Source of the DNA: an uncultured Saccharospirillaceae bacterium
GTDB lineage: Bacteria; Pseudomonadota; Gammaproteobacteria; Pseudomonadales; Natronospirillaceae
DNA: 48,081 nucleotides
Assembly: GCA_913063165.1 (NCBI GenBank)
Contig: CAJXZL010000013.1
Location: 1 to 48,081, forward strand
Direction of reading: 5' to 3'
Positions 17,703-46,565 of this stretch are shown piece by piece. The notes beneath the pieces are model-generated. The model saw only the letters and a program-made list of their open reading frames with translations. It made no database searches and was not told where the DNA came from. Each line of letters begins with the position of its first letter. The first letter of the stretch is position 1. The position numbers and the translations under genes were made by a program.

Positions 17703-18443
17703 TCGGGTCCCTTTGCTATATATGGCTTGTTAAGCCCGCTTACGCAAGTAATGGCTATTGTGGCAAAGCCCACAGTCTACGGTTCATTCTTATCTGCGTT
17801 CAAGTCCATATGCGAAACTCGCTTCGCACTGTGCTTCAATCATGGGGATGGGCCGCATAATGCGCACAGAGTCAACATACTACAGCGCCAAGAGATATAT
17901 CGGCAAGCCAGGCCCTCTGGTGCACTTGATGCAATGCTGTCTATCAGTGCAGCGATAACCGACAACAGTCATTTGATATGTTTACTCTGTGCCAATGATG
18001 CGCGCTCTTCTTCACACGGCTTATCAGCCACATTTGCACCTGCGACCAATACGGTTATCTGCAGTTTTCGCTGGATTTAGCGGCGTTATTGGCCCGAAAA
18101 ACGGCATAGCCTTCATTTTCAAGAGATAGTGTCATCATGGTGGTTTACGCCAATGCATCATCTACGCCCATTGAATCTGGATGCTTAAACATCACAATGC
18201 GCATTTGCCAGTATTAAAACAGCCGTTTGAACGCAATTGTTGTGAGGGTTTAATGACAGCTTGTTCGGTTACAGATTGATCAGTGACAAAATCCTACGCG
18301 CACTATCATAAAGCCTTTTTACGGAGACAATTGGCGCGCTAATAGCAACATGCTACAGTGCCAACAGCGTTATCAGCCAGTTGGTCACAACTTGCAGTGG
18401 GTCAGCTGATGGGCGACACAATAATAAGAAACAAGGAATATTT
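17703..18443. other. 741-bp region without a convincing gene
   Basis: This stretch holds the galM promoter region at its left end, including a 5-bp-arm inverted repeat (17724-17736), and the ribosome site of the GNAT gene at its right. A 117-codon rightward frame (17727-18080) is open, but its composition is irregular, it lacks a ribosome site and resembles no family. I see no tRNA, repeat or strong hairpin. It could be a decayed gene or hold a small RNA that cannot be read by eye. Confidence 0.5.
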
Positions 18444-18896
18444 ATGTCGTATCTGAACATCAAATCATTGGCGCCAGCCCATTACGAACAGTGGTTGGCG
18501 TTGTTTCATGGTTATGCCCATTATTACAACTATCCTGTGACGGCAGAAAGCATTGCAAACACCTGGGGTTGGTTAATGAATGCTAATTATCCAGTGACGG
18601 GATTTGTGGCAGAACTCGATGGCAGTTTGGTGGGTTTTGCCCATTGTCGTGCCATGCCAAGCCCACTGCGTGGCGAAGAAATAGGGTTTTTAGATGATGT
18701 GTTTGTCGACCCTGAATGTCGCGGTATGGGTGTTGCAGATCGACTGATTGAAGCAGTAAAAGAAGAAGGGATAGAGCAGGGCTGGCCGATTATTCGGTGG
18801 ATCACCCGCGATAATAATTACCGTGCGAAGGCCCTGTATGACCAAATAGCCACCAAGTCTAATTGGGATACCTACGAGCTGAAGTGCGAAAACTAA
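18444..18896 (+). CDS. GNAT-family N-acetyltransferase
   Basis: A 150-residue GNAT protein. The start at 18444 follows AAGGAA; an upstream in-frame start adds 21 unrelated residues. The acetyl-CoA-binding motif is 'VDPECRGMGVADRLIEAV' (R/Q-x-x-G-x-G/A pattern, about 90-107), preceded by the beta-bulge strand 'IGFLDDVFV' and followed by 'TRDNNYRAKALYDQI'. The substrate is unknown; small GNATs of this sort acetylate amino groups of amino acids, polyamines, antibiotics or proteins. It stands alone. Confidence 0.88.
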   Translation: MSYLNIKSLAPAHYEQWLALFHGYAHYYNYPVTAESIANTWGWLMNANYPVTGFVAELDGSLVGFAHCRAMPSPLRGEEIGFLDDVFVDPECRGMGVADRLIEAVKEEGIEQGWPIIRWITRDNNYRAKALYDQIATKSNWDTYELKCEN

Positions 18897-19003
18897 GGCA
18901 ATGGGCTCGGTAACCACGGGAGTTGGCGGGGGTTTTCAGTATGCTGACCTCTGTCAATAACGTGATGAAGCCCACAAATTTCATCCTGATGCCAGAAAGA
19001 GTT

Positions 19004-19081
19004 ATGAATAATTGTCAGGGATCACACCTGCAGAATGAAATTCTGAGAATATTAACCGATGTGAACGATGCTACTCGGTAA
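19004..19081 (+). pseudogene. Likely displaced 5' end of the HD-GYP gene
   Basis: ATG at 19004 opens 25 codons (…NEILRILTDVNDATR) ending in TAA at 19079-19081. 'ILTDVNDAT' is the sort of helix that opens a GAF domain. Adding one base in the CGG at 19076-19078 would read on through V-T-I into MIDDSSDLPK of the annotated gene. This suggests a single-base loss, real or from assembly, rather than a separate peptide. Confidence 0.45.
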
Positions 19082-19086
19082 CCATT

Positions 19087-20265
19087 ATGATTGATGACAG
19101 TTCTGACCTACCCAAAAACTTCTCGCGGATGAAGGCGTTGTTGAACGTGGATTATCCGCAAGTGCACCGCATGGCCATCGCGATTTATCATCCTGAACGC
19201 GATACGTTGCAAACCTATCTCTACGACGAAGACGTCGACAGCCAACTGCATAATTATGAAGCCAAGATGTCTAAATGCTTGTCACTCCAGAAGTTGGTGG
19301 CGGCTAAGTCTGAGCGGGTTATTAATGATTTGACTGTGTTTGAGGGTAAAGGCAATTTCCACACCCAAGTAATTCTTCAAGCGGGTTACCAATCAAGTTT
19401 TACTGTGCCCCTGCTGATTGACGGGCAGCTATTTGGCTTTTTGTTTGCTAACTCTCGAGAAACTGAAGCCTTTGGTACGCATTTGGTCGAACGATTAAAA
19501 CTCATCGCCAAGATCATGGCGCTGATGCTGCATAAAAACCATGAAAAACTGCGGGTATTGCGCGCATCGGTAGAGTCATTAAAGGTCGCGGGTGCCAGTC
19601 AAGACCCAGAGGCTGCCGAACGGTTACAGCGTACTGCGCAGTATTCCCTGATCATCGCGCGCCATTTGGCAGACGAGTATCAGTTTTCAGATGTGTATAT
19701 CGACTTTATCTATCTCTATGCGTCGTTGCATGATATTGGCCAAATCAAAGTGCCTGAGAGTATTTTGCTCAAAAAGGGCGCATTGACCAATGAAGAGCGT
19801 CAGGTGATGGAGCGCCATGCCAAAGCAGGACATAATTTGGTTGAGCGTCTCATTGATATCTACGGTCTTGATGAACTACCCTATATTTCAGTTTTGACCG
19901 CCATGACCCACTCTCACCACGAGAAGCTCGATGGCTCAGGCTATCCAGAAGGGCTTGTAGGCGATGCAATTCCAATCGAAGCCCGTATTGTCGCAGTGGC
20001 CGACATTCTTGACGCCCTGCTGTGTGAACGCCCGCACAAACGTGCATGGACAATCGAAGAGGCATTTCGTGAGCTGCGATCATTGGCAGGCACCAAGTTA
20101 GACGCTGACTGTGTCGAAGCGGTTTTGAACAATCGCAATGAAATTCAGACGATTAGAGAGCATTACGCAGATCAAGTCATTATGTTGCACGAAGGCAGTT
20201 TTATGTCGGTCACATCGGCACTACTGGAACGCAACAAGTCGCTAAAGAATCCACCGAAGGACTGA
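19087..20265 (+). CDS. GAF/HD-GYP-type phosphodiesterase, probable cyclic-di-GMP hydrolase
   Basis: A 392-residue protein with an N-terminal GAF-like sensor (about 1-150) and a C-terminal HD-GYP domain (about 170-375). The HD pair is at 215-216 (SLHDIGQIKVP), the HHE at 277-279 and GYP at 285-287 (LDGSGYPEGL), all expected of cyclic-di-GMP phosphodiesterases. The GAF domain starts abruptly: a frame 5' of it (19004-19081) encodes a GAF-like first helix and would join if one base were added near 19078, so the N terminus may be frameshifted. As annotated, the start ATG at 19087 has no good ribosome site. Followed after 45 nt by a sugar-isomerase-like gene, perhaps co-transcribed. Confidence 0.85.
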   Translation: MIDDSSDLPKNFSRMKALLNVDYPQVHRMAIAIYHPERDTLQTYLYDEDVDSQLHNYEAKMSKCLSLQKLVAAKSERVINDLTVFEGKGNFHTQVILQAGYQSSFTVPLLIDGQLFGFLFANSRETEAFGTHLVERLKLIAKIMALMLHKNHEKLRVLRASVESLKVAGASQDPEAAERLQRTAQYSLIIARHLADEYQFSDVYIDFIYLYASLHDIGQIKVPESILLKKGALTNEERQVMERHAKAGHNLVERLIDIYGLDELPYISVLTAMTHSHHEKLDGSGYPEGLVGDAIPIEARIVAVADILDALLCERPHKRAWTIEEAFRELRSLAGTKLDADCVEAVLNNRNEIQTIREHYADQVIMLHEGSFMSVTSALLERNKSLKNPPKD

Positions 20266-20310
20266 TGCGAGCCAGCCTGTCAAGATTGGCTTGATCACAT
20301 GGGAGGCAAC

Positions 20311-21135
20311 ATGGAACTGGCATTTCACAAATCATTTTGGGAATCGGACTGTTCCGATGCCTCTCATCTTGACGCTTTGCTCGATACCGTACAACACGAA
20401 GGTTACCAGGGCACCGAGCTTTTTTTGCCGTTCTACGACATTGCCCCCGATATCACCCTCGACCTCCATCGCGCACGTGATCTCAATATCATTGCAGGGA
20501 TTGCCACCCATGGGCTTACTCCAAAAGGCCATATCGCCAGCCTTGAGCAACAGGTAGCGCGCGCGTTGGAATTTGAACCGTTATTCATCAACTGTCATAC
20601 CGGAAGGGATCTTTTTTCTTTTGAAGACAACCTTGCCATCTTTAGACGGGCATTGGCACTAGAGGCTGAAACCGGTGTTATGTTGGTACACGAAACCCAC
20701 CGAACCCGTCCGACATTTTCAACGCTGATGACCGAGCAGTTACTCGCGGCATTACCCGAACTGAAGTTGAACTTAGACATCAGCCATTGGATGGTGGTAC
20801 ATGAAACCGACCTGTCAGATCAGGCGGAACGGGTGTCTGCGCTCGTCAAGCAGGCCTGGCATGTGCATGCCCGTGTGGGCTACGAAGAAGGTCCACAGGT
20901 GTCCGATCCTGCTAGCCCATTGTGGTTAGACCATTTGCATAACCATATAGGCTGGTGGCAACAGGTCGTTGACGCAGCCCAGCTTCGGGGACAAGACCAA
21001 CTCACCATCACACCAGAATTTGGTCCTTTTCCCTATGCACAGGTCAATCCTGTGACGGGTATCCCGCTAACGGATATTTGGCAAGCCAACCAGTTTATGC
21101 ACCACACACTGGCAGAGCAATTACGGCTAGCCTAG
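20311..21135 (+). CDS. Xylose-isomerase-like TIM-barrel protein (sugar phosphate isomerase/epimerase family)
   Basis: A 274-residue protein of the AP-endonuclease-2/xylose-isomerase-like barrel superfamily. Signature pieces are 'GYQGTELFLPF' (early strand with Glu), 'FINCHTGRD', 'MLVHETHRTRPTFS' (Glu/His metal-site region), 'LKLNLDISHWMVV' (Asp/His), 'WHVHARVGY' and 'LTITPEFGPFPY' (late Glu). GGGAGG lies four bases before the ATG at 20311; a start four codons upstream is possible. Members isomerise or epimerise sugars, inositols or hydroxypyruvate. The substrate here is unknown. It converges with the next gene, 6 nt apart. Confidence 0.83.
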   Translation: MELAFHKSFWESDCSDASHLDALLDTVQHEGYQGTELFLPFYDIAPDITLDLHRARDLNIIAGIATHGLTPKGHIASLEQQVARALEFEPLFINCHTGRDLFSFEDNLAIFRRALALEAETGVMLVHETHRTRPTFSTLMTEQLLAALPELKLNLDISHWMVVHETDLSDQAERVSALVKQAWHVHARVGYEEGPQVSDPASPLWLDHLHNHIGWWQQVVDAAQLRGQDQLTITPEFGPFPYAQVNPVTGIPLTDIWQANQFMHHTLAEQLRLA

Positions 21136-21141
21136 GTTTCG

Positions 21142-21534
21142 CTAAGCGGATTCGTACAATTCTAAAGGCAGGCCATCGGGATCTTGAAAGAAGGTAAACC
21201 GTTTTCCGGTCAATTCATCCAAGCGGACGGCTTCTACGCTGATGCCCTTTTGCACCAGTTCTGCCACCGCACCCTCTAAGTCAGATACCCTAAAGGCAAG
21301 ATGTCTCAGTCCACAGCTTTCTGGTTTCGACGGCCTCGGTGGCGGCGTTGGAAAGGAAAACAATTCAATCTGGGTGTTGTCGGGTAACACCAAATCCAAT
21401 TTGTAGGAATCGCGTGCCTTGCGAAAGGTTTCCGCTAGCACCGTTGCGCCTAATATGTCGATATAGAAGCGCTTCGATACCGCATAGTCTGCGCAAATGA
21501 TGGCGATGTGATGAATGCCTAACAAGCCTTTCAA
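21142..21534 (-). CDS. VOC-superfamily glyoxalase-like metalloprotein (YaeR type)
   Basis: A 130-residue single-module vicinal-oxygen-chelate protein, close to the YaeR/SMU1112c group. Family marks: 'GIHHIAIICADYAVSKRFYIDILGA', 'DLVLPDNTQIELFSFPTPPPRPSKPE', 'GLRHLAFRVSDLE' and 'FFQDPDGLPLELYE'. Metal ligands expected are His8/His9, Glu in IELF, His in RHLAF and the final Glu. The start is TTG with GAGGGG eight bases upstream; no ATG fits. The reaction is unknown; glyoxalase I-like lyase or related chemistry is possible. Confidence 0.88.
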   Translation of the reverse strand: MKGLLGIHHIAIICADYAVSKRFYIDILGATVLAETFRKARDSYKLDLVLPDNTQIELFSFPTPPPRPSKPESCGLRHLAFRVSDLEGAVAELVQKGISVEAVRLDELTGKRFTFFQDPDGLPLELYESA

Positions 21535-21730
21535 TGGATGGCCCCTCTCTCTATTAGCGGTACTGTGGTGGTATTCTACCCCATGATATCTTGATGAACA
21601 GCGTCAGTTTGGTGCAGCGGTTCAAGTGCCAGTATTGCAAAGCAAGCCACAGTGTTCGGGTACATGACATGCTATATAAGACAATGCGCATAACCTAACG
21701 CGGTAGACATTCTGAAAAAGGAGTCCGGCA

Positions 21731-22171
21731 ATGACGACCAAAGCGACGAACAAAAATAAGACGGTGCCAACCACGGTATCCGCTGACGATTTTCTGGCAT
21801 CTCAAGCGTTTTCTGAACAAGAACATGCAGCAGCCCAGTCGCTGATCACGTTGTTTGAGCAAGTGACCGGCAAATCTTGTGTTATGTGGGGCAAGATATT
21901 TGGGTTTGGGCAATACCATTATCAGGGTAGGAGCAGTGAAGGCGAGTGGATGGCCACCGGCTTTGCCTTGCGAAAAAATGCCATTACCCTCTACATCATG
22001 TGCGGATTTTCAGGCGCAGTTGCCCCCTTGCTAGAGGATTTGGGTAAATACAAGATCAGCGGCGGTTCCTGTCTGTATATTCGAAAACTCGCCGACGTTG
22101 ACATGGCCATTCTCGAAAAAATCATTAAAACGGGCCTGGATGAATTAACCAAAGGCCATGACATACAATAG
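21731..22171 (+). CDS. DUF1801 (YdhG-like) domain protein
   Basis: A 146-residue protein. A strong AAAGGAG ribosome site precedes the ATG. The N-terminal 20 residues are basic and Thr-rich. The rest is a DUF1801 fold: 'LITLFEQVTGKSCVMWGKIFGFGQYHYQ', 'ATGFALRKNAITLYIM', 'LLEDLGKYKISGGSCLYIRKLADVDMAILEKII'. The family has an alpha/beta fold related to the Bacillus YdhG/frataxin-like proteins; its role is not established. Converges with the methyltransferase gene, 17 nt apart. Confidence 0.82.
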   Translation: MTTKATNKNKTVPTTVSADDFLASQAFSEQEHAAAQSLITLFEQVTGKSCVMWGKIFGFGQYHYQGRSSEGEWMATGFALRKNAITLYIMCGFSGAVAPLLEDLGKYKISGGSCLYIRKLADVDMAILEKIIKTGLDELTKGHDIQ

Positions 22172-22188
22172 GTTTTTAGCCAGCCAGC

Positions 22189-22935
22189 CTAGGGCACAGT
22201 GGCACTGCACGCTTGGTACTGCCGCAATATGTACTGGGCTCTGCCGGTAGGGTCCCGTTTTAGTCGGTTGCGATAATGGGTGATCAATTTGTTGAGATAA
22301 CGCTGATGGTCGGGATTATCCGCTTGCCACAGATCGCCCGTTAGCGACACACGCGGACCGATGGTATCCGCCACTGGGCTGCGCGCCCAAATGATTTCAT
22401 ATTGTCTGCCTTTTTCAGTCACCAATGACTCTTGTAACAACACAAAACCGCTGTCGTGCAGGTATTCCCGGAGGTCAAACTGGGTCGTGCTCGGACAAAA
22501 CACATAGTCGATGGGCTGTTGTGTATGCTGCGCGGCAAGCCGCATTAACATTTGAATCGTTAGTTCGCCGCCGATCCCGGCAAACACAGCAAGATGCTTC
22601 AAGTTGCTGCCAAAATGCACTGATCCGGCATCTATTGCATGTAATTGGTAGTCATCATGCGAAAACTGACGAAGGGCTTCATCTTGAGAAAAACGGTCGG
22701 CAATGTCGCTAATCAGATGGGGCAGTTGGTCGACGAAATGTACCTGCCCACCTATGTCTGATGCCAATAACTGAAAACCCAAATAGCCGTGATCACAACA
22801 GCAATCCCACAAGTGGTCATAGGGTGATTGGCTGGAGCCTAATGCGATCACATCAAAAATGCCCTGCAGCCGAGGACCCAAGGCAGGCAGTTGCGCGGAT
22901 TGTTGACTAATGGTTGTGGAGGCGGATGTCGTCAT
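22189..22935 (-). CDS. trmK: TrmK-family tRNA (adenine-N1)-methyltransferase
   Basis: A 248-residue SAM methyltransferase of the TrmK/DUF633 family, which in Bacillus methylates A22 of tRNA. Motif I is 'HLWDCCCDHGYLGFQLL' (about 42-58; the family usually has D-[IV]-G-x-D-H-A/G-x-L-P). Then come 'VHFVDQLPHLISDIADR' and 'LAVFAGIGGELTIQMLM' (motif with G-[MI]-G-G-x-L). 'CPSTTQFDLREYLHDSGFVLLQESLV' is also typical. The Cys-Cys-Cys in motif I is unusual. Gammaproteobacterial members are less studied than the Gram-positive ones, so the exact base target is inferred. Confidence 0.82.
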   Translation of the reverse strand: MTTSASTTISQQSAQLPALGPRLQGIFDVIALGSSQSPYDHLWDCCCDHGYLGFQLLASDIGGQVHFVDQLPHLISDIADRFSQDEALRQFSHDDYQLHAIDAGSVHFGSNLKHLAVFAGIGGELTIQMLMRLAAQHTQQPIDYVFCPSTTQFDLREYLHDSGFVLLQESLVTEKGRQYEIIWARSPVADTIGPRVSLTGDLWQADNPDHQRYLNKLITHYRNRLKRDPTGRAQYILRQYQACSATVP

Positions 22936-22996: not shown

Positions 22997-24079
22997 TCAA
23001 AAGGCATAGCGGAGATTACTGCGAAAGGCGATGGCCCCCGTGCGGCGGTGACTAAACACATCATCCACATCACCCTGACCCAGGCTTAGGGTCGCGTTGA
23101 GGGTAAAACCTTGTCGCAGGTTGCTGCTCATTCCCAGCGAGGTCAGCGATGATTGGTCGATTGGGCTTAGCATGACCTGTGCAAAGGCACTGGAGCGGCT
23201 ACTGATGCCAAGGCTCAATGACCCTTGCAGCAGGTGTCGATACCAGTACCCATTGGCCCGTTCAGTGGTGGCACCTGCTGAGTCCCAGACCGTTTCAAGC
23301 CGATAATTCCAAGTGGACGACTGTGGCCGCGACCACAAACCGTAGACGCCCGCAGTGACCAATTGCCGTGTGATGCTGTAGTGGTTATCAATTTCTGCGC
23401 GGGCACTGACATGCCAGTTGAGACCGCTGCCGCCCTGAAGGCTGATATAGGGCATCAGTTGTTGGCTCGTACCCTGCCACGCCATGCCGGTTTCAATTTG
23501 GTTGTTGTGCCAAGACGCCATTTGGAATTGGTGGCGTGCCGCAACGGTAAACTGATCGGCTGACGCTGTGGGAATGGCCTCGCTGGTGGCAGGCGCTACC
23601 ACGGCAATTTCGTAAAAAGAAAACCGCCCTAATGGATGTTGGAAGGTGCCTAACCATCGGTGATCTGTAGGCGGTGCCAAGAGCGGACTTGGTTGATTGG
23701 GTAAGGTCACAACATCTCCAGCATTAAATACAGTGCCTTGCCCCCAACCCAATGCGGTTTTACCGAGGGTGATGCGATTGCCTTCCCAACGCATTTTTGC
23801 GTATGCCTTGTCGAGGGTAAGGTGCGGTTCGGTGCTATTGGCAGACAGGTGGAGATAGGATTTCAGGGTTGATGAGCCGCTGGTGTTCAGTGCGAGCTGT
23901 CCTGACAATTGGTGAGGTGTTTGCCAACTGTCATCTACCGGATTCCATTTGGCCTCTTGTGTGGCATTGATTTCAATCCTGCGCTGAAGGTCTGCTTGCG
24001 CACCAATGGCACAGACACAGAGTCCCAGTAACCCCACTTTAACCGCCGCCGTATAGCGGGTCAGCGCATAGGTAGCCAT
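22997..24079 (-). CDS. Predicted outer-membrane beta-barrel protein of the FtsX/LolA-like operon
   Basis: A 360-residue protein with a signal peptide (hydrophobic about 13-26, cleavage likely after GAQA). Alternating hydrophobic/polar strands run throughout, and the last residues are 'SNLRYAF', ending in the terminal Phe with alternating aromatic positions that the BAM machinery recognises. The N-terminal half resembles a beta-sheet-rich porin-like pattern ('YLHLSANSTEPHLTLDKAYAKMRWEGNRITLGK'). It starts directly at the stop of the LolA-like gene (TAAATG), so it is translationally coupled. No specific family was recognised. Position as the last gene of an ABC/FtsX/LolA-like operon suggests the outer-membrane terminus of that system. 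Confidence 0.75.
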   Translation of the reverse strand: MATYALTRYTAAVKVGLLGLCVCAIGAQADLQRRIEINATQEAKWNPVDDSWQTPHQLSGQLALNTSGSSTLKSYLHLSANSTEPHLTLDKAYAKMRWEGNRITLGKTALGWGQGTVFNAGDVVTLPNQPSPLLAPPTDHRWLGTFQHPLGRFSFYEIAVVAPATSEAIPTASADQFTVAARHQFQMASWHNNQIETGMAWQGTSQQLMPYISLQGGSGLNWHVSARAEIDNHYSITRQLVTAGVYGLWSRPQSSTWNYRLETVWDSAGATTERANGYWYRHLLQGSLSLGISSRSSAFAQVMLSPIDQSSLTSLGMSSNLRQGFTLNATLSLGQGDVDDVFSHRRTGAIAFRSNLRYAF

Positions 24080-24820
24080 TTACCACGTGAGCTCTTGGAT
24101 GGAGAAGAAGTCAGGCGTCAATGGTGTGTCAACCTCAATGGTGTCGATATAGAAGTCGGTGGCGCTGTTGCCCTTTAGGTGGTCTTCAATCCGCGAATGG
24201 GTAGCAAAGCGATATCCCGCCTGTTCAGACAGGGCGAGCACCGTTTGCACTTTGAGTAGCTTGCCATTCAGTGAATATTTGTGGGCCTTTATCGTCGAGA
24301 ATTGCGTGGCGTCAATCCACAATTCTTGGGTTGGGTATGCAACACTGGGTCTTAGCGCACTGAGTTTAATGCGATAGACCGATAGGCCGTCGAGGGTTTC
24401 TTGCGTTGTTTCTGTCACCTGATAACTATCGAGTAATGACTTATCGCCCGTCATGTCTTCATAACTGAGGTCGCTACCAAGCAAGCTGTCTCTGAGGGCC
24501 GATCCCGATAACCGAATCACTTCTTCGGCGTCAGGAAAGTACAGATACAGGTCATCGTGGCTACGCAGCACCTTTTGGCCTTGCTCATCGGCACTGGTGA
24601 ATAAAATGAGACTATAGTCAGCACCCAATGACCAACTTTCAAAGGTGCTGATTTTCTCGCCAAAGCGGTCATTGATCACCATTTTGCCCCGCACAAAGGC
24701 ACTGTCAAAAACCTGTTGGCTTTCAAGTTTCCTAATGATGTCCTCACCGCTCATGTCAGCGGCGCCAGCGGGCGCTACCCAAATCAGCAGGGCCAATAGG
24801 CGCAGTCCGATGGTTTTCAT
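24080..24820 (-). CDS. LolA-like periplasmic protein (outer-membrane lipoprotein-sorting-related)
   Basis: A 246-residue periplasmic protein with a signal peptide (about 1-20, AGA-AD). It belongs to the LolA-like half-barrel group often named 'outer membrane lipoprotein-sorting protein': 'FVRGKMVINDRFGEK', 'LRSHDDLYLYFPDAEEVIRLSG', 'LGSDLSYEDMTGDKSLLDSYQV', and 'YPTQELWIDATQFSTIKAHKY'. The 'GSD-SYED' segment is diagnostic in my reading. Such half-barrels carry lipid or lipoprotein acyl chains across the periplasm. It is preceded by two FtsX-type permeases and coupled to an outer-membrane barrel. AAGGAGA precedes the ATG. Confidence 0.82.
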   Translation of the reverse strand: MKTIGLRLLALLIWVAPAGAADMSGEDIIRKLESQQVFDSAFVRGKMVINDRFGEKISTFESWSLGADYSLILFTSADEQGQKVLRSHDDLYLYFPDAEEVIRLSGSALRDSLLGSDLSYEDMTGDKSLLDSYQVTETTQETLDGLSVYRIKLSALRPSVAYPTQELWIDATQFSTIKAHKYSLNGKLLKVQTVLALSEQAGYRFATHSRIEDHLKGNSATDFYIDTIEVDTPLTPDFFSIQELTW

Positions 24821-24863
24821 GGCAATCTCCTTAAATGCGGTGAGCGGCTACAGTAAAATACAA

Positions 24864-26087
24864 TTACAACGACTGCATGGCTTCAATGGGTTTAATTTTG
24901 GCTGCCCGTTGTGCGGGCCACAAACTAATCAATGACGCCACAAAGACCGCGCCAAAAAATGCGATGGCCATGCTGCCCCACGTCAGCTTGGGATACATAA
25001 TGCCTGAAATCTCAAAGCTCATTTCACCCATGGCACTGGTAAAGTCCAACCCGGTTTGTTCCAAAATTAACGCAATGACGGAACCAATGAGCGTACCGAC
25101 AAACGCCCCGAGGGTGCCGAGCATTGCCGCTTCAAAAAAGAACAGACGGACTATGGTCTTGCCCTCCATACCCAAGGCCGCCAAGGTGCCGATCTCACGG
25201 GTCCGCTCAAAAATGATCATCATGGTGGTATTGATAATAACGGTGGATGCCAACAGGTAGAAGATCAGTGCACCGACCCCATAAATCATCCGCGCCATTT
25301 GAATAAAGACATAGGACGAGGGAATAGCATCCCATTGTTCGACCACAAATTCCGGTCGGTCACTGTTTGCCAATAATTGCTCAATCTGTATTTGCAATGC
25401 ATCAGCATCACTGTCTGGTGCGGCTTTAATCAACAGATCAATCGCTCGGTCACCCATCTTCAAAAACCGTTGTACGGTATCCAACGGCGCATAAAACTTG
25501 TCATTGAGTTCGCCCAAGGGCAGTTGAGAAATGCCGTAAACCGTAAATGTCATGCCATTGGTGGCGCGGCGCAAAGTGGTCGACAGCAGGGTAAATTTGT
25601 CTCCCACACCCAGACCGAGCTTATTGGCTAAGCCAATCCCTAACACGGCTTGCCGTTCACCAGCGAGAGGCAACTGGCCTTCGATAATAAAAGGCGCTAG
25701 CTGCATGGTATCCGCGAGCATATCCATGCCTTGGCCAAGGGCTGCGATATTTTCACCCTCCACATACACCGAGGCAGGGAAGGTGATACGTCCGCTAGCG
25801 GTGGCAACGGCTGGTAGCGCATTGATGGTGGCCACCAATTCACTGGCATTGGTTACACTCAAGTTCAGCGGGTTCAGATTGACGTACTTGTCGAAGTCGG
25901 CATGACGTACCCGAAGTTCTCCGGTGTAATAGGTTTGCAGGTTGTAACCGATTTCATCAGCCAAGCCTGTCACCAAAGAAAACATCATCGTCATGGTAGC
26001 CGAGGCCACACCGATTGCCGATGCGGTCAAAAACGACCGACGAGAATTGCGTTTGATGTTACGCCACGCCATTTTGTAGAGATTCAT
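24864..26087 (-). CDS. FtsX/MacB-type ABC permease, second of a pair
   Basis: A 407-residue permease. One N-terminal span (about 17-38), a MacB-type periplasmic core domain (about 40-265), then three C-terminal spans (about 275-300, 325-350, 370-395) with the FtsX consensus 'FERTREIGTLAALGMEGKTIVRLFFFEAAMLG'. GGGAGG ribosome site. It starts 16 nt after the first permease and should pair with it as a LolCE-like heterodimer using the upstream ATPase. No lipoprotein-sorting specificity can be read off directly. Confidence 0.88.
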   Translation of the reverse strand: MNLYKMAWRNIKRNSRRSFLTASAIGVASATMTMMFSLVTGLADEIGYNLQTYYTGELRVRHADFDKYVNLNPLNLSVTNASELVATINALPAVATASGRITFPASVYVEGENIAALGQGMDMLADTMQLAPFIIEGQLPLAGERQAVLGIGLANKLGLGVGDKFTLLSTTLRRATNGMTFTVYGISQLPLGELNDKFYAPLDTVQRFLKMGDRAIDLLIKAAPDSDADALQIQIEQLLANSDRPEFVVEQWDAIPSSYVFIQMARMIYGVGALIFYLLASTVIINTTMMIIFERTREIGTLAALGMEGKTIVRLFFFEAAMLGTLGAFVGTLIGSVIALILEQTGLDFTSAMGEMSFEISGIMYPKLTWGSMAIAFFGAVFVASLISLWPAQRAAKIKPIEAMQSL

Positions 26088-26103
26088 AAGCCTTGCCTCC
26101 CGA

Positions 26104-27363
26104 CTAGTTATCGACGCGTAAGCAGTCGGTGATAGACAGTTTCAATGCTTGCCGTACCGGTATCAGTGCCACCACCATCGAGATTAAAATGCCGGTAAAA
26201 AAGGCGACCACAAACATCTCAGGTCTAAAAATGCCATGAAAAACCGAGCTGATGCGGTAGCCGATATCCATATCACGCAATAAGAAGCTAAAATCGATGC
26301 CTATGGCGACCATAAACCAGACAAAGAGACCCCCGATAATCAAGCCTAGGAAGCCCCCAATAACACCAATGCCACCTGCTTCAAACACCAGGGTCAACCC
26401 AATTTCTCTGGGTGTCATACCCAAGGCTTGCATCATGCCTAGCTCTCGGCGTCGCTCATACATCGCCATCATCATGGTATTGGTGATGCCAACCATAGCG
26501 ATCAAAAATACCAACCCAAGAATGGATGACGAGCCAGATCGTTTGGCAGCAACCAAATTTAAGAAACTTTGCGCCAGGTCTCGCCAGCTAAGCGCCGTGA
26601 GTTTATCGCTGTTCGGTGGCAGTGCTGCAAGCACCTGCGCCTTGGTAACTGCGGTATCGGCAGTGACTGAAAAGGCAATGTCGATTTGGGTAACGCTGCC
26701 CTGCAGCTGTAGATGGGTGTTAGCAAAATCTTGGTCGATCAAGATCTGGGTTCTGTTAATTAGGGGGTTACCTGTATTGATCAGGCCAACCACCTCAACA
26801 TCCAATGTCTGAAAAGCGCCATCTTTAGTACGTGTGACCAAGGTAACGGGGTAGCCCACCTCGGCGCCGATATCCTCTGCTAGCCAAGCCCCTAAAATAG
26901 CGCCGTTGCCGCCGGGCGTTAACCAGGTTCCGCCGGCTAACACTTCTTTCCCGGTACGATAAACCGCGGTGTCATGTTCTGGATCGATAGCGAATACCCG
27001 TACCAACAGCGAACCGTCCTCCGGATAGGGGTCTTTTCGCAAAATAGCCTCTGCGGCAAATGCCGTTCGTGTCGTGACTGCAAACCCTTGGTCTCGCAGT
27101 GAGGTTACGATTGGTTCTGGGTGGTCGATGAGGTGTTTGAGGTTGTATTTATCGCGCTGCGCCACATTGTCTGTTTGATACAGGCGAATAGAGCTCGTTT
27201 CGTACCAGACCAGATTACGTTCAGAATCTTTTTCGGCTCCGATCAATAGCGAATCCATAAAGAGAAACAGGCCCAACCCAAATCCGATTGCCGACGCCGT
27301 GATCAGTGTGCGCTTCACATACCGTGATAGGTTCTTCCAAGACAAACGCATCAGAAAGAGCAT
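26104..27363 (-). CDS. FtsX/MacB-type ABC permease, first of a pair
   Basis: A 419-residue permease with the same four-span layout: span 1 at about 18-40, periplasmic domain about 42-275, and C-terminal spans in 'ILGLVFLIAMVGITNTMMMAMYERRRELGMMQALGM' and the following two hydrophobic stretches. It begins next to the ATPase stop, whose last codons (CGG AGA TAG) also supply the ribosome site. It and the second permease are similar in plan but clearly diverged, as in LolC/LolE. Confidence 0.88.
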   Translation of the reverse strand: MLFLMRLSWKNLSRYVKRTLITASAIGFGLGLFLFMDSLLIGAEKDSERNLVWYETSSIRLYQTDNVAQRDKYNLKHLIDHPEPIVTSLRDQGFAVTTRTAFAAEAILRKDPYPEDGSLLVRVFAIDPEHDTAVYRTGKEVLAGGTWLTPGGNGAILGAWLAEDIGAEVGYPVTLVTRTKDGAFQTLDVEVVGLINTGNPLINRTQILIDQDFANTHLQLQGSVTQIDIAFSVTADTAVTKAQVLAALPPNSDKLTALSWRDLAQSFLNLVAAKRSGSSSILGLVFLIAMVGITNTMMMAMYERRRELGMMQALGMTPREIGLTLVFEAGGIGVIGGFLGLIIGGLFVWFMVAIGIDFSFLLRDMDIGYRISSVFHGIFRPEMFVVAFFTGILISMVVALIPVRQALKLSITDCLRVDN

Positions 27364-27365
27364 GG

Positions 27366-28043
27366 CTATCTCCGTTTATCCGATTGTATTTGGCCATCGT
27401 GCAACATCACCAAGCGACGGGCATGGTCCATCACCATTTTGTCGTGGGTGCTGAAGATAAAGGTGGTGTTGTATTTCTCATTCATGGCTTTCATCAGGTT
27501 CAACACGTCTTCACCATTCTTACTGTCCAAATTGGCAGTGGGCTCGTCGGCCAAAACAATGGAGGGGTTCTTGATGAGGGCGCGGGCGATGGCAACGCGC
27601 TGCTGCTGTCCGCCAGACAGTTTGCTGGGTCGTCGATCTTCCATGCCTTCCAATCCGACTTCTTTGAGCAGGGTCATGGTACGTTCGCGCACTTCGGCTT
27701 CTGTCACATTCAACAGTGACAACACCAAAGCAATGTTTTCGTAAGCAGATAGCACGGGAATGAGGTTGAATGACTGAAAAACAAAACCCAGCTTATTGCG
27801 CCTAAATCCAGCAAGCTTGCGGTGATCCATTGCGGACACCTCAATGTCGTCTATTACCACTTTTCCATGGTCGGCGCCGTCAATGCATCCAATGATGTTC
27901 AAGAGGGTGGTCTTACCAGAACCACTCGGGCCGGCGATAGCGACAAAGTCACCCTGTTCAATGGTCAGGGTCACGTCTCTTAGCGCATGCACTGTTGACT
28001 CACCGGATAAATACTGCCGCCCTAATCGCTCAATTGAAATCAT
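27366..28043 (-). CDS. LolD/MacB-type ABC transporter ATPase
   Basis: A 225-residue ATPase. The start at 28043 follows GGAGGT; an upstream in-frame start adds nine residues without a ribosome site. Walker A GPSGSGKTT, Q-loop 'VFQSFNLIPVLSAYENIALVL', signature LSGGQQQRVAIARALI, Walker B 'IVLADEPTANLD' and H-loop 'FSTHD' place it in the LolD/MacB/FtsE group. First gene of a five-gene leftward operon, it energises the two FtsX-type permeases. No membrane-fusion protein gene accompanies it, unlike MacAB. A promoter-like TATAGT (28069-28074, minus strand) and a palindrome (28083-28092) lie upstream. Confidence 0.92.
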   Translation of the reverse strand: MISIERLGRQYLSGESTVHALRDVTLTIEQGDFVAIAGPSGSGKTTLLNIIGCIDGADHGKVVIDDIEVSAMDHRKLAGFRRNKLGFVFQSFNLIPVLSAYENIALVLSLLNVTEAEVRERTMTLLKEVGLEGMEDRRPSKLSGGQQQRVAIARALIKNPSIVLADEPTANLDSKNGEDVLNLMKAMNEKYNTTFIFSTHDKMVMDHARRLVMLHDGQIQSDKRR

Positions 28044-28082
28044 AGCTACCTCCGAGATCCATATAACCACTATAGACTTGTT

Positions 28083-41726: not shown

Positions 41727-44700
41727 CTATGAGATTATCCTTGGGATAAACAAAGTTACGGTGGTTCCTTTATCAATTGCCGATTCGAGAGTCACAGTGC
41801 CGCCCATAGATGTTACATAATTCCGAACGATATTAAGGCCGAGGCCTGAACCCTCTGGCGCAGTATCTGAAGAATCTGCGCGCCAGAACCGATCAAATGC
41901 ATGGCTTATTTGATCTTCTGTCATACCTGCCCCAAAATCTTTAACGCTGAATGTGACGTACTCTTTGTTTTCGGTCACGTGTAATTCAATCGGGAGCTTT
42001 ACGCCGGTATATATGGTCGCATTCGAAATGAGATTTCTCAAGCAGTGCGCCAGCTTATTGGCATCAATCTCGTACTCCTCGTCTGTAAGGTCTACGGACA
42101 CCTTGATTTGATGCGATTCGAATAGAGGGCCAGCTGATACCAAAAAGCTGTTAATCCAAATTCGAACATTCATAGGCGCACGGTGCGCGTTGGTGGGATC
42201 TCCAGATTCAATTTTTGCGATATCCAACAATTCATTGATGATATTTGACAATACTTGCGCTTGTTCGGTGATGTGGATGCTATATTCTTTTTGCGATTCG
42301 TAGTCCAGTTTTTCAGACATTAACTCAGAAAAGCCCTGAATACTTGTAAGCGGAGTCCGAAGTTGATGTGCAGCGGTCGCAATGAATTCAGTCTTCATAA
42401 GGTCAACTGCGCGCTCCAGTGTCACATCTCTAAATGCAGTGACATAGCCTTTTAACTCGCCATCCTTAGTCAGTACGGGCGATGTTGTGCTGATCAATTG
42501 GATCCGTTCGTTTTCCTGCTTACTGGGCAAATCATGCGTCGCGGTGGTCATGTTATCACCCAAATTGTCAATAGATGAGTGGATGGCGTCTATAACGGAA
42601 GGCGGCAGATTGCACTTGTCAAACCTCTTGCCTACCACCTCAGTAATGCTCAGGCCAAGTAGTTTTTCTCCGAAAGGGTTGAGCATTTGAATCCGACCAT
42701 TCGGTGAAACCACCAGAATACCTTCACTAATCGCCATAAGAATGAAATTAAGTTTATTACGGGAGTCTTCAGACTCTCTTAGGGCATCGTGCAAGTCTGT
42801 GGTACGCAATTCTACCAAGCGCTCTAGCTGCTGTTGGGTTTGAGCGCGCTCCGTGATATCTAACACACCATGGAACGTACACTCTTCTCCAAGGTATTCC
42901 ATGTGACGACTAGAATACAGTGCCCAAAACTCAGTGCCATCAGGCTTTTGGCCAGCCACTTGTTTGCCTGTGGCGATGCCATACTTATCGAGGGCTGCTT
43001 CGATTTCTTTTCGATCACTGTCCTCTTTTATCCAATTAATTTTCAAAGGTTTCTCAAAACTATTGTTATCAATATTGAAAAACGACAAACACGCCTTGTT
43101 TGTAAACATTGCCACAGTGTCTTTACGGCGTGTGATCATGATAGGGATTGGGGTGGCATCTACAATGGATTGGAAACCACTCTGGAATTCACGTACTTTC
43201 TTGTCCGATTCGAATTTGTGAATAGTCAATGCCAATTGATTTGCAATTCGGTCTAGCGAACTATCAATGTCATTAAGATTGGTTTCTGTAATGGGTACTT
43301 CCAAGATGCCCATGACTGTCTGTAGGTGTTTAAGAGGTAACCGAACCATGCCTGAGTAGGCCGTTTTCTTGACTACTTCGGGTACGAGCGACAAATCTTT
43401 GACGTTAGTAATCAAAGACGACATCGCTTTTTCAGGATCTTTGGTGCGTACGACTGTTTTTTGTCGTACTACCTTGCTTAGTGTGTGATTACCACTGAGT
43501 GGTAAGGAATGACCAGTTGTAAACGCGTAAGCAAGCTTTCCAGCATCCTTGCGAATGTTATCGCTGTAGGAACTTGCGCCCAAGTAGATAATTTGTTTTG
43601 GGGCGTCAACAATATAAATGTTGCACACAGGAATTTTAAGCAGTTTTCCGATGTTACTCGCGGCCTGCTTTAAGAATTGCTCAAAAGTATCTTCTTCTTC
43701 CATGAACCTATTGATGTTGTTCAGGAATAGCAATTCATCCTGTTGACGTCGCAGATTCTGGATATCAATAAACGAAATGATCAATCCATCGATCATTTTA
43801 TCGGCAGTGATAAACGGGCTGATACGCATTAAATGGTGGGTATTTTCATTCGAGGTGATTTCATGTTCAACCGTCACCAATTCACGTAGTACGCGCTCGC
43901 TTTCTTTTATTAAAAGGTTACGGGTGTAGGCGTCAAACCCAGGTGCAAAGGTTTTGATATTTCGACCAATGTCATCATCACGCAAACTGAAGTGAATTTT
44001 CAGCGCAGGCGTGAATTTTCGAATATTCATGTCGACGTCGAGGAACAAAGTGCCGATATCTGTACTGTTAAACAAGTTGCTCATGTCGTTGTTTAGCGCA
44101 GACAATTCACGGTTTTTTTCTTGCAGTTCAGCGTTGACCGTATAAAGTTCTTCGTTAACAGACTGGAGCTCTTCGTTGGTACTTTGTAATTCTTCGTTAG
44201 ACGCCATGAGTTCTTCGTTAGACGACTGCAATTCTTCATTGCTGGTCTCGAGTTCTTCAGTGGCATTTTGCAATTCAACGCGATTGAATTTTAATTCTTC
44301 TTCAAGGTCTCGAAGGCGGTGCGCAGTAATGTCGTCAATTGGGTTCGACTCTAATTGGATAAGATTACCTTCAACCACTTCTCCGTCGACAAATCCAATG
44401 AAGTAATTGTGATTACCACTGTTTGATATGCTATGGGTGTCTTCAATAATGCTAAAGATGACATCTATTGACTGGTACCTAGGGCCCGCAGATCCGCTAA
44501 CCGGAACCGAACTGCTTACGCGAATCTCGGTAGCAGAGGATGTCAATTTTCGGACACCGGTGCGGATAATTGACGAAAGTTCCGGACTCACCATGTCCAT
44601 CAGGTTGCCTTGAAATAAGCCTGCGCCAACCACCAGTTTTTTGGAAACGTCACCAACGATGTATAACACATTAAAACTGCTGTCGGTCACGATGCCAGTG

Positions 44701-46265
44701 GGCGCAAATTTATTGGTGAGATATTTCAAAAACCGCATTTCAGGTAATTTGTGGTTTGAAACAGAAGGACCGCGGCTGGCAATAGGGTTACCGTATCCGT
44801 AGTGAGTTTTGGCAATCCGGTCTTCTGGATTCAGCTGGTTGGGCAGCAGCTTTGTGTCAGAGTTCTTGGTGTATATTTTCCACTTCGCGTCTACTACATT
44901 GAAATACTTACTCATGTCTCCCAAAGATTCGCTGCTACCCAAAAAAAGATAGCCGCTTTTCTCCAAGGCGAACTGAAACCGCGTATAAATACGCTGTTGT
45001 GCTGCTGCATCTAAGTAGATCAATAGGTTTCGGCAAGAAATTAAATCCATACGAATGAAGGGTGGGTCCGTCATCAAATTGTGTTGAGAAAAGACCACGC
45101 GTTCACGAATGCGCTTAATAATTTGGATCTGTTCGCCTACTTTCACAAAGTAGTTTTCTAAATAATGGCGCTCAACTTCCGATGTGATGTTAACCGGAAA
45201 AACACCTGCGCCAGCATTGACCAATGCTTCATTGTCGATGTCAGTCGCAAAAATCTTAAAATCTAGGAACATATTGTTGGAACGAATGTGTTCATCGAGC
45301 AGTATCGCTAGTGAGTATACTTCTTCACCAGTTGAGCAACCTGCCACCCAAACCCGAATAATGCTGTCCTTTTTCTTGCCCATCACCAAGCTAGGTATCA
45401 CTTTGGATTTGATGACATGATAGGCTTTGGGATCTCTAAAAAAAGACGTAACTCCGATAAAGAAGTCCTGTTTAAGGGCCTCACGCTCACGACGATCTTG
45501 TTTGACGTACTGTAGGTATTCCTGAAAATTGGATTTGCCATTCATGGCAATGCGCTTTTCTAAGCGTCGCAAAATAGTAGCGCGCTTATATTCTGAGAAA
45601 TCGATACCAGACTGCTTATGGATTTCTTTTAAAATGCCGACGAAGGTACGTTCAAAATCATCGTTGCCCTGCATATCGCCACTGATATTGAGATTCAGGC
45701 CCCAAAGCGACTTCTCAATGACTTCGCCTATAATATCAGGTGTCACAATATAGTCTGCTAAATGTGTGGCGATCGCGGCATTTGGCATGCCGTCAAACTG
45801 GGCGCTAATGGGCTCCTGCACAATGACGATACCGCCTCCTTCACTGACTACTTTGATGCCACGAGATCCGTCAGATCCCGTGCCAGACAACACAACAGCA
45901 ATAGCCTTTTCTTTGTATACTTCCCCAAGACTGGTAAAGAATATATCAATAGGGAGGTTGAGGTGATCCTTGGGTGCCTTGTCGGACAAATGCAGTTTGT
46001 TGCCGACAATAATTAGATTCTTTTGTCGCTGGTTTAAGTAAATGCAGTTTGGCTTGATCTCGAGACCGTCCGCCGCCGTGTAAATCTTCATTCCGGTATG
46101 TTTGGCCAATAACTCAGGCATCAAACTTTTAAAATCAGGCGATAAATGTTGGACAATGACAAATGCCATTCCCGTGTCGATAGGAATATTATCAAAGACT
46201 TGCTGGATAGCATCTAGTCCGCCAGCAGAAGCACCAATACCGACAACATACAATTTATTATTCAT
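41727..46265 (-). CDS. CheB-CheR-PAS-GAF-PAS-histidine kinase fusion protein
   Basis: A 1512-residue cytoplasmic sensor. CheB methylesterase domain about 5-190 with its catalytic Ser13 (GIGASAGG), His40 (QHLSPDF) and Asp132 (SGTGSDGSRG). CheR methyltransferase about 210-470 with the SAM motif 'VWVAGCSTGEEVYSLA' and 'ISCRNLLIYLD'. A long coiled coil (about 640-720, an N-E-E-L-Q-S repeat) leads into a PAS (about 735-850), a GAF (about 860-1010), two further PAS (about 1015-1280), HisKA with His1300 (AAHQLRTPL), and HATPase (N-box, 'DFGAGMTEDQ', 'GSGLGLNIV') to the end. Unlike classical CheB it has no receiver domain. Start at 46265 by ribosome site (GTGGAAA). No chemoreceptors are nearby, so methyl-type chemistry may tune kinase activity. 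Confidence 0.93.
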   Translation of the reverse strand: MNNKLYVVGIGASAGGLDAIQQVFDNIPIDTGMAFVIVQHLSPDFKSLMPELLAKHTGMKIYTAADGLEIKPNCIYLNQRQKNLIIVGNKLHLSDKAPKDHLNLPIDIFFTSLGEVYKEKAIAVVLSGTGSDGSRGIKVVSEGGGIVIVQEPISAQFDGMPNAAIATHLADYIVTPDIIGEVIEKSLWGLNLNISGDMQGNDDFERTFVGILKEIHKQSGIDFSEYKRATILRRLEKRIAMNGKSNFQEYLQYVKQDRREREALKQDFFIGVTSFFRDPKAYHVIKSKVIPSLVMGKKKDSIIRVWVAGCSTGEEVYSLAILLDEHIRSNNMFLDFKIFATDIDNEALVNAGAGVFPVNITSEVERHYLENYFVKVGEQIQIIKRIRERVVFSQHNLMTDPPFIRMDLISCRNLLIYLDAAAQQRIYTRFQFALEKSGYLFLGSSESLGDMSKYFNVVDAKWKIYTKNSDTKLLPNQLNPEDRIAKTHYGYGNPIASRGPSVSNHKLPEMRFLKYLTNKFAPTGIVTDSSFNVLYIVGDVSKKLVVGAGLFQGNLMDMVSPELSSIIRTGVRKLTSSATEIRVSSSVPVSGSAGPRYQSIDVIFSIIEDTHSISNSGNHNYFIGFVDGEVVEGNLIQLESNPIDDITAHRLRDLEEELKFNRVELQNATEELETSNEELQSSNEELMASNEELQSTNEELQSVNEELYTVNAELQEKNRELSALNNDMSNLFNSTDIGTLFLDVDMNIRKFTPALKIHFSLRDDDIGRNIKTFAPGFDAYTRNLLIKESERVLRELVTVEHEITSNENTHHLMRISPFITADKMIDGLIISFIDIQNLRRQQDELLFLNNINRFMEEEDTFEQFLKQAASNIGKLLKIPVCNIYIVDAPKQIIYLGASSYSDNIRKDAGKLAYAFTTGHSLPLSGNHTLSKVVRQKTVVRTKDPEKAMSSLITNVKDLSLVPEVVKKTAYSGMVRLPLKHLQTVMGILEVPITETNLNDIDSSLDRIANQLALTIHKFESDKKVREFQSGFQSIVDATPIPIMITRRKDTVAMFTNKACLSFFNIDNNSFEKPLKINWIKEDSDRKEIEAALDKYGIATGKQVAGQKPDGTEFWALYSSRHMEYLGEECTFHGVLDITERAQTQQQLERLVELRTTDLHDALRESEDSRNKLNFILMAISEGILVVSPNGRIQMLNPFGEKLLGLSITEVVGKRFDKCNLPPSVIDAIHSSIDNLGDNMTTATHDLPSKQENERIQLISTTSPVLTKDGELKGYVTAFRDVTLERAVDLMKTEFIATAAHQLRTPLTSIQGFSELMSEKLDYESQKEYSIHITEQAQVLSNIINELLDIAKIESGDPTNAHRAPMNVRIWINSFLVSAGPLFESHQIKVSVDLTDEEYEIDANKLAHCLRNLISNATIYTGVKLPIELHVTENKEYVTFSVKDFGAGMTEDQISHAFDRFWRADSSDTAPEGSGLGLNIVRNYVTSMGGTVTLESAIDKGTTVTLFIPRIIS

Positions 46266-46565
46266 CTGATTTCCACTAATTAAATGGGTTGGGGCCAAAT
46301 TAAAATAGAGGATTTTTTCTCATATTGAAACAAAAAAAACAACAAAATATCAATCAGTTGGCGACCATTTACGTTGATCTTTGAGTGTTTTCGGTGGTTT
46401 TAAACAGTGCAATCTTACATTGCAGTGGTGTAACACCCGTTAAAACCCCTGATGACAGGCCGCCACATGTACAAAAAGGCAACGACAGTAATGTCCATCA
46501 ATGGCTAGTTCTACTTTTCGAACAATGCATTGGAAATGTCGATTTGTAGCACTTTTCTAGCCTAT
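46266..46565. other. Intergenic leader upstream of the kinase gene
   Basis: 300 bases between the kinase start and the cytochrome stop. AT-rich near the kinase (A-tract at 46330-46347). A cluster of inverted repeats lies at 46396-46459 (listed separately). I saw no open frame or terminator with a T-run. Confidence 0.6.
46396..46459. other. Structured element: three-way junction of inverted repeats
   Basis: An outer stem GGTTTTAA (46396-46403)/TTAAAACC (46440-46447) encloses two hairpins: TGCAAT-CTTAC-ATTGCA (46408-46424) and GGTG-TAA-CACC (46427-46437). A third, CCTG-ATGA-CAGG (46448-46459), follows immediately. On the minus strand it lies 131 nt upstream of the kinase start and could be part of its leader or the 3' end of the cytochrome transcript. 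All stems are short, so chance is possible. Confidence 0.45.

Follow-up and report, generated by a model that had tools for sequence, protein, structure and literature searches.

A long-standing question is by what route lipids other than lipopolysaccharide (LPS) and lipoproteins get to the outer membrane. In Borrelia, the cluster BBJ23-29, which comprises an ATP-binding cassette (ABC) ATPase, one permease, a LolA-like protein, two tetratricopeptide repeat (TPR) proteins and an Omp85-type barrel, was proposed in February 2026 to move a non-polar ligand, a proposal presented on a purely computational basis (PMC13078400). In Castellaniella defragrans, the system AmeABCD is described as combining a resistance-nodulation-division (RND) pump with a DUF1302 barrel and a DUF1329 protein of the LolA superfamily, and its deletion is reported to lower monoterpene tolerance (PMC6394551). 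These are the closest described counterparts of the set of five genes that is the subject of the present analysis. The set lies in a stretch of DNA of 48,081 nucleotides, henceforth the window, from an uncultured Saccharospirillaceae bacterium (GenBank assembly GCA_913063165.1, contig CAJXZL010000013.1, positions 1 to 48,081 of the forward strand), and it codes for an ABC ATPase, two permeases of the FtsX type, a periplasmic LolA-like carrier and a predicted outer-membrane beta-barrel. The reading towards which we lean, with modest confidence, is that the five products make up a single relay across the envelope, exporting a small molecule of hydrophobic or amphiphilic nature, with an acyl lipid as the likeliest candidate. 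In the open-licence literature we found no published account of a five-gene set with a barrel resembling AlgE or Wzi.

The initial annotation had described five leftward genes separated by 2, 16, 43 and 0 nt, and the coordinates of the open reading frames bear this out: all five were found, on the minus strand, at 22997-28043, with exactly these gaps. The types of protein it had recognized hold as well, the ATPase (ABC_tran), both permeases (FtsX) and the carrier (PF17131, LolA_like) being assigned by Pfam, and the barrel by its AlphaFold2 model together with a C-terminal Phe. From first gene to last, the set reads as follows:

27366-28043, minus strand: ABC ATPase of the LolD/MacB type, 225 residues, first gene (ABC_tran, 1.1e-33)
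26104-27363, minus strand: permease 1, of the FtsX type, 419 residues (FtsX, 1.8e-19)
24864-26087, minus strand: permease 2, of the FtsX/MacB type, 407 residues (FtsX, 4.5e-18; MacB_PCD, 2.5e-16)
24080-24820, minus strand: periplasmic LolA-like carrier, 246 residues (PF17131, 1.6e-43)
22997-24079, minus strand: outer-membrane beta-barrel, 360 residues, a putative distant member of the barrel family of such sets (profiles and fold)

The order is ATPase, permease, permease, carrier, barrel; all five components stand in one same-strand cluster and the spacing is operon-like. The ATPase may start at an ATG at 28043, with GGAGGT just upstream, a GTG at 28070 being possible too, and a scan for promoters and terminators returned fewer sites than were found in shuffled sequences.

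The proposal that these genes belong together had been staked on the barrel and carrier genes keeping company with the ATPase and permeases elsewhere. They do so in 55 of the 60 barrel-positive genomes of the order, and at 23 of 31 loci in named genomes, so that a system of five genes is well supported by the recurrence of homologous sets. In one arrangement, which we call type I, the carrier gene comes first, followed by two permease genes, the ATPase gene and lastly the barrel gene, and the first ten barrels aligned (alignment A1) all end in Phe (10/10). When 390 genomes of the order were searched with the A1 profile, 60 of them gave a total of 61 matches. In 55 of the 60, the carrier, two permeases (or one fused), the ATPase and the barrel lie on one strand of the stretch that was fetched: 49 have the carrier-permease-permease-ATPase-barrel order, 2 have three permeases and 4 a fused permease behind the ATPase, fused permeases of more than 780 residues being counted as two. 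All gaps are at most 400 nt in 52 of the 60; 3 of the 55 have a gap above this limit, in one case of 7.7 kb before the barrel. The five exceptions are genomes G161, G109 and G136, with no partner gene in the fetched stretch, G067, with one permease, and G358, with carrier and barrel only. The 31 loci recovered with the barrel profile from named genomes, 30 of which entered a further alignment (A3, with L129 left out), include full sets in Natronospirillum, Saccharospirillum and Reinekea, as well as in metagenome-assembled genomes (MAGs) labelled Rhodobiaceae, Pseudomonadales, Deltaproteobacteria, Cloacimonadota, Riflebacteria/Ozemobacter and Myxococcota; several of the genomes also figure in the search of the order, and single MAG records may be contaminated. 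Eight named loci fall short of a full set. In seven of them no carrier was found, the first permease lying at most 672 nt from the end of the available DNA; in the eighth, L138, carrier and barrel stand beside a reading frame of 889 residues. The ABC, permease and carrier genes also cluster in other genera of the window's own family. All these counts are of homologous sets found via their barrels, not of close relatives of the set in the window. For the latter, searches found no close relative of the barrel (22 family and 390 order genomes), of permease 1 (22 family, 390 order and 369 class genomes) or of the carrier (57 relatives), the best identities being 24-34%. A match to permease 2 is present in 798 E. 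coli plasmid records. Judged from sequence, the gene set is genuine, widely conserved and predicted to span the envelope, and that of the window is a diverged member.

A second arrangement, type II, has the order ATPase, one permease, carrier. Eight such sets were examined: 6 have a related barrel nearby, which in L070, L073 and L075 follows the carrier directly, and 5 have a kinase gene nearby; type II and type I barrels are related (hhalign probability 96.8). Genes for a histidine kinase and for a response regulator (in L217 annotated as LytTR) accompany the type II sets L071, L073, L074 and L217. Near the set in L069 is a protein of 339 residues with an Omp85 domain, the type of barrel also named in the Borrelia proposal, and the Omp85-domain proteins of type II sets gave no match to BBJ25. 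The set of the window fits neither arrangement. Trees were built leaving out near-duplicate loci, with 26 type I carriers (a draw capped at that number) in the LolA tree and 34 chosen loci in the permease tree. The type I carriers form a supported group (99/97) that does not include the window carrier, which is likewise separate from type II; the window permeases fall outside both the group containing the type I permeases (97/93) and the type II group (100/100). The carrier and both permeases drew a long-branch warning, which makes their position unsure; because of these long branches, the trees say only that the window holds a diverged, separate lineage. This lineage also has its own gene order.

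By eye, the carrier has a signal peptide and no lipobox. Its AlphaFold2 model (mean pLDDT 90.5) matches the PF17131 group, with Z scores of 28.7 for 3bk5 (rmsd 1.8 over 222 residues), 28.3 for 4z48, 27.7 for LolA3 of Porphyromonas gingivalis (9tp6) and 25.8 for 3buu, as against 14.4 for the best true LolA and 16.1 for P. gingivalis LolB. The sequence profile of the carrier ranks 3bk5, 4z48, 9tp6 and 3buu as the first four entries of the Protein Data Bank (PDB); the family of the carrier is PF17131 and not LolA (PF03548). P. gingivalis LolA3, of the same group, is described as having neither the arginine of LolA nor the leucine of LolB, and as binding LolB weakly (PMC13103446).

The ATPase carries the Walker A motif GPSGSGKTT and the motif LSGGQQQR. 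Among NCBIfam models it scores highest with DarD (219.5 bits), ahead of LolD (214.9), but it reaches the cut-off of neither, that of LolD being 307.75, which leaves it outside the curated LolD family. For both permeases the closest NCBIfam model is LolCE, at 79.3 bits for permease 1 and 104.8 for permease 2, where membership begins at 362.45. In comparisons with solved chains, the best match of permease 2 is LolF (3.2e-16); that of permease 1 is YtrF (1.3e-9), with LolF and LolC next. In E. coli, the Hook of LolC recruits LolA, a role predicted to be general in the account given in PMC10865981. The corresponding stretch measures 27 residues in each window permease versus 32 in the genome's own LolF, and the extension is missing from 48 of 48 aligned permeases of such sets (26-28 residues), the window's two included; the alignment covered 29 chosen loci, and its 50th row, a MacB-like permease, aligned poorly over the Hook. 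A gap of 5-6 residues in this region also appears against the solved LolF and LolC chains. Since the window permeases have no Hook extension, the carrier is probably recruited in another way than in Lol.

All this bears on the idea that the set might be a second, dedicated Lol system, in which the ABC transporter would extract a few special lipoproteins, the LolA-like protein would carry them, and the barrel, replacing LolB, would insert them or flip them to the surface. We consider this unlikely. The preference of both permeases for LolCE in NCBIfam, that of permease 2 for LolF and LolE among solved chains, and the fold that the carrier shares with LolA and LolB speak in its favour; yet the Hook, predicted to serve generally for LolA recruitment (PMC10865981), is absent from the permeases of these sets, the carrier is much nearer to PF17131 structures than to LolA, LolA3 being reported as a weak binder of LolB (PMC13103446), and no lipoprotein gene recurs widely beside the sets. 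The gene lnt, which codes for apolipoprotein N-acyltransferase and is near the set in 11 of the 22 family genomes (loci L067, L068, L079, L080, L081 and others in Saccharospirillum and Reinekea), would fit lipoprotein traffic, but in most cases it is no dedicated paralog: a dedicated Lnt was rejected, as in 9 of the 11 genomes the protein is the sole LNT_N match, while G014 and G020 have two such matches, of which it is the stronger. It had further been supposed that the housekeeping Lol system lies outside the window, and this proved right. A LolF-like permease (506.6 bits, above cut-off) with an adjoining LolD-like ATPase gene, and a PF03548 LolA, are present on other contigs of the genome, and replacement of housekeeping Lol by the set was rejected on that account.

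For the barrel, no Pfam family reaches its cut-off, and among AlgE, OprD/Occ and Wzi the sole Pfam hint is Caps_assemb_Wzi, at 22.1 bits with a cut-off of 30.1, which places the protein outside these families by sequence. Its AlphaFold2 model is a beta-barrel (mean pLDDT 72.5, residues 111-139 being under 50) whose best fold matches, AlgE, OprD/Occ and Wzi, are tied, with Z scores of 16.6-17.4 and rmsd values of 3.7-5.0 over 274-303 residues, at identities of 4-13%; no PDB chain is convincing by sequence for the barrel family (best E 0.2). The window segment GKTALGWGQGTVFNAGDV is the counterpart of a motif, GRQxISxG....FSPxDV, seen in many relatives. Against two barrel profiles built without it, the window barrel scores 23.1 and 23.2 bits, where the best of 3000 shuffles reach 10.6 and 7.7 bits and seven unrelated outer-membrane barrels (Omp85, FhaC-type, TonB receptor, BBJ25) at most 2.7 and 6.5 bits. 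A single hhalign comparison with the family gives E 1.8e-6 (probability 89.7, 218 columns), and one with a smaller alignment E 2.2e-5. A search of the 390 order genomes with the window barrel as sole query retrieved a single further protein (E 2.2e-4 for one genome), and this lone match is itself the barrel of a carrier-permease-permease-ATPase-barrel set (L202, its carrier cut by the contig end). Weakly but consistently, these comparisons point to the window barrel as a very distant member of the shared family.

As for the cargo, one hint comes from relatives with one permease. In enterobacteria such sets are embedded in clusters of genes for acyl biosynthesis. Three of them are carried by plasmids, in E. 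coli G8, Enterobacter bugandensis and Rahnella, and a fourth is found in a record of Klebsiella aerogenes whose annotation is patchy (loci L220, at 18404-22238 of the E. coli G8 plasmid NZ_CP060058, and L222, L223 and L224). The E. coli G8 cluster codes for a short-chain dehydrogenase/reductase (SDR), an acyl carrier protein (ACP), a FabZ-like dehydratase, a ketosynthase and a protein with a FeeM domain; those of Enterobacter and Rahnella code for a holo-ACP synthase, an SDR, a dehydratase, a phosphopantetheine-binding protein, a ketosynthase and a malonyltransferase. The gene after the carrier scores 41.9 bits in E. coli, 21.4 in Enterobacter and 39.5 in Rahnella against the large barrel profile, and beside the enterobacterial ATPase there is a small protein with TPR matches below cut-offs. 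The E. coli version is rare, being present in 2 of 5426 E. coli genomes. At L178, a set from the order, a fatty-acid hydroxylase gene lies 9 nt upstream of the carrier. With acyl clusters around the one-permease relatives, export of an acyl lipid is favoured over lipoprotein sorting, and these enterobacterial clusters are the first concrete class of cargo to look for. A universal cargo gene was sought by clustering the neighbours of 84 loci (8 near-duplicates among 92 having been left out) and rejected, the commonest family being found at 11 of the 84 and the operon-adjacent genes varying by lineage.

A relay of this kind would work in three steps. A dimer of the ATPase and a heterodimer of the two permeases would use ATP to extract the molecule from the inner membrane, in the manner of type VII (MacB/LolCDE-like) transporters; the PF17131 half-barrel would ferry it across the periplasm with its acyl part in the groove; and the barrel, of 16-18 predicted strands, would receive it and either insert it into the outer membrane or release it through that membrane. 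The same parts might instead serve the efflux of toxic hydrophobic compounds, such as solvents, terpenes or antibiotics, that the cell does not make. The analogy is with AmeABCD, which shares the periplasmic and outer-membrane layout and is reported to protect against monoterpenes (PMC6394551), and genes for TetR-like regulators are seen, by eye, upstream of some sets (L137, L140, L141). Set against this are the enterobacterial relatives in acyl biosynthesis clusters and the regulator nearest to the window's set, a LysR gene on the same strand ending 236 nt upstream, which gives no sign of serving it; efflux seems to us improbable. Elsewhere in the window, at 41727-46298, is a gene for a protein of 1523 residues with CheB, CheR, PAS and histidine kinase domains.

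The direction of transport is a further matter. In a retrograde version, the barrel would take in a lipid, or remove it from the outer membrane, and the carrier would bring it to the inner membrane. At L164 (5437-14254, genome G036) a distance of 7.7 kb separates the ATPase from the barrel that follows it, and between the two is a module of TonB receptor, DUF3450, ExbB-type, TonB and TPR genes, an arrangement that would suit uptake. This module may energize the L164 barrel. However, ABC transporters of the MacB/LolCDE type are known as exporters, and we regard uptake as very improbable.

Several observations weigh against export of an acyl lipid by a relay of these five proteins. No neighbour family recurs widely, the commonest, a response-regulator domain, being the one found at 11 of 84 loci, and the set in the window is not flanked by any gene for biosynthesis. 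With the small barrel profile, the proteins that follow the carrier in enterobacteria reach only 9.6 bits (E. coli), 4.9 (Enterobacter) and 13.7 (Rahnella), and no N-terminal signal can be seen by eye in the E. coli carrier as it is annotated. The presence of lnt within about 5.5 kb of the carrier in half of the family genomes (11/22) could hint at lipoproteins. The kinship of the window barrel to the family is weak: a whole-genome search with the barrel profile at E 1e-5 did not list it, and barrels of the RND type (L207, L138) equal or surpass its scores with these profiles (26.3 to 252.8 bits), so that the profile marks a wider barrel family and not the ABC sets alone. Finally, neither type I nor type II includes the window carrier and permeases, which sit on long branches, and the cargo hint from enterobacteria may therefore not transfer to the window.

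Comparison with known systems then proceeds by parts. With LolCDE or LolDF, LolA and LolB, the set shares an ATPase, two FtsX permeases and a half-barrel periplasmic carrier; it differs in having no Hook extension, a carrier of another family, scores below the Lol cut-offs and, as its last gene, a barrel instead of the lipoprotein LolB. With MacAB-TolC it shares the ATPase and the FtsX/MacB-type fold of the permeases, but ATPase and permease are separate genes, and MacAB-TolC was rejected, as a Pfam search of the five genes and of three neighbours showed neither a fusion protein nor TolC. Locus L187, elsewhere in the genome, reads by eye like a fusion protein, an ATPase and a permease. The likeness to AmeABCD, as that system is described, lies in a barrel, a periplasmic protein of the LolA superfamily and one inner-membrane pump, with hydrophobic substrates (PMC6394551), whereas AmeABCD has an RND pump (HAE3) and an additional periplasmic AmeC, and the pump of the window is ABC/FtsX, not RND (MMPL). 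The same genome also holds, at L082 (contig C18, 3544-8403), an MMPL RND pump of 886 residues, a PF17131/DUF1329 carrier and a barrel-like protein of 435 residues, the layout being that of AmeABCD; in the barrel-like protein a comparable segment is seen, the match being weak (hhalign probability 8.6, E 0.0039). In Porphyromonas and Prevotella, operons that join an MMPL transporter to such a sorting protein are reported to be strongly induced under iron limitation (PMC10434189).

With BBJ23-29, as it has been outlined, the set shares an ABC ATPase, an FtsX permease, a LolA-like carrier and an outer-membrane barrel in one cluster (PMC13078400). The ABC and FtsX profiles match BBJ26 (193.8 bits) and BBJ27 (180.9 bits), while the carrier profile matches BBJ28 weakly (8.0 bits). 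In contrast, the set of the window includes two permeases but no TPR gene, and its barrel best matches AlgE, OprD and Wzi where that of Borrelia is of the Omp85 type, which still leaves room for an Omp85 fold. The last Borrelia gene, BBJ29 (L225, 10008-11009), given as unknown, scores 10.4 bits against the large barrel profile (hhalign probability 2.9%), the other listed proteins of the cluster scoring below 0; BBJ29 might be a second barrel, which we put forward as a suggestion and not as a claim. In a set of the order, L211 (4665-10214, genome G203), a TPR-like protein, an ATPase, a second TPR-like protein, a permease, a carrier and a barrel follow each other, a content that resembles the Borrelia cluster.

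The set is small and self-contained, and is found in distant bacteria, so that it can be deleted, moved or reconstituted as a whole. We would give an even chance to a broader view, in which all these sets form one general class, as yet without a name, of lipid shuttles across the envelope, each with an acyl product of its own, the PF17131 carrier and the AlgE/Wzi-like barrel being an exchangeable outer half mounted on an ABC pump (with two, one or fused permeases) or on an RND pump, and the window holding a separate, deep-branching ABC lineage. Were the outer half indeed shared with RND pumps, the AmeABCD-like systems, the Borrelia proposal and the ABC sets would make one family, and this would suggest that many proteins which now bear the annotation 'outer membrane lipoprotein-sorting protein' do not sort lipoproteins. 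Among what has been described, the set of the window is best seen as a variant of a kind of system that was recently proposed.

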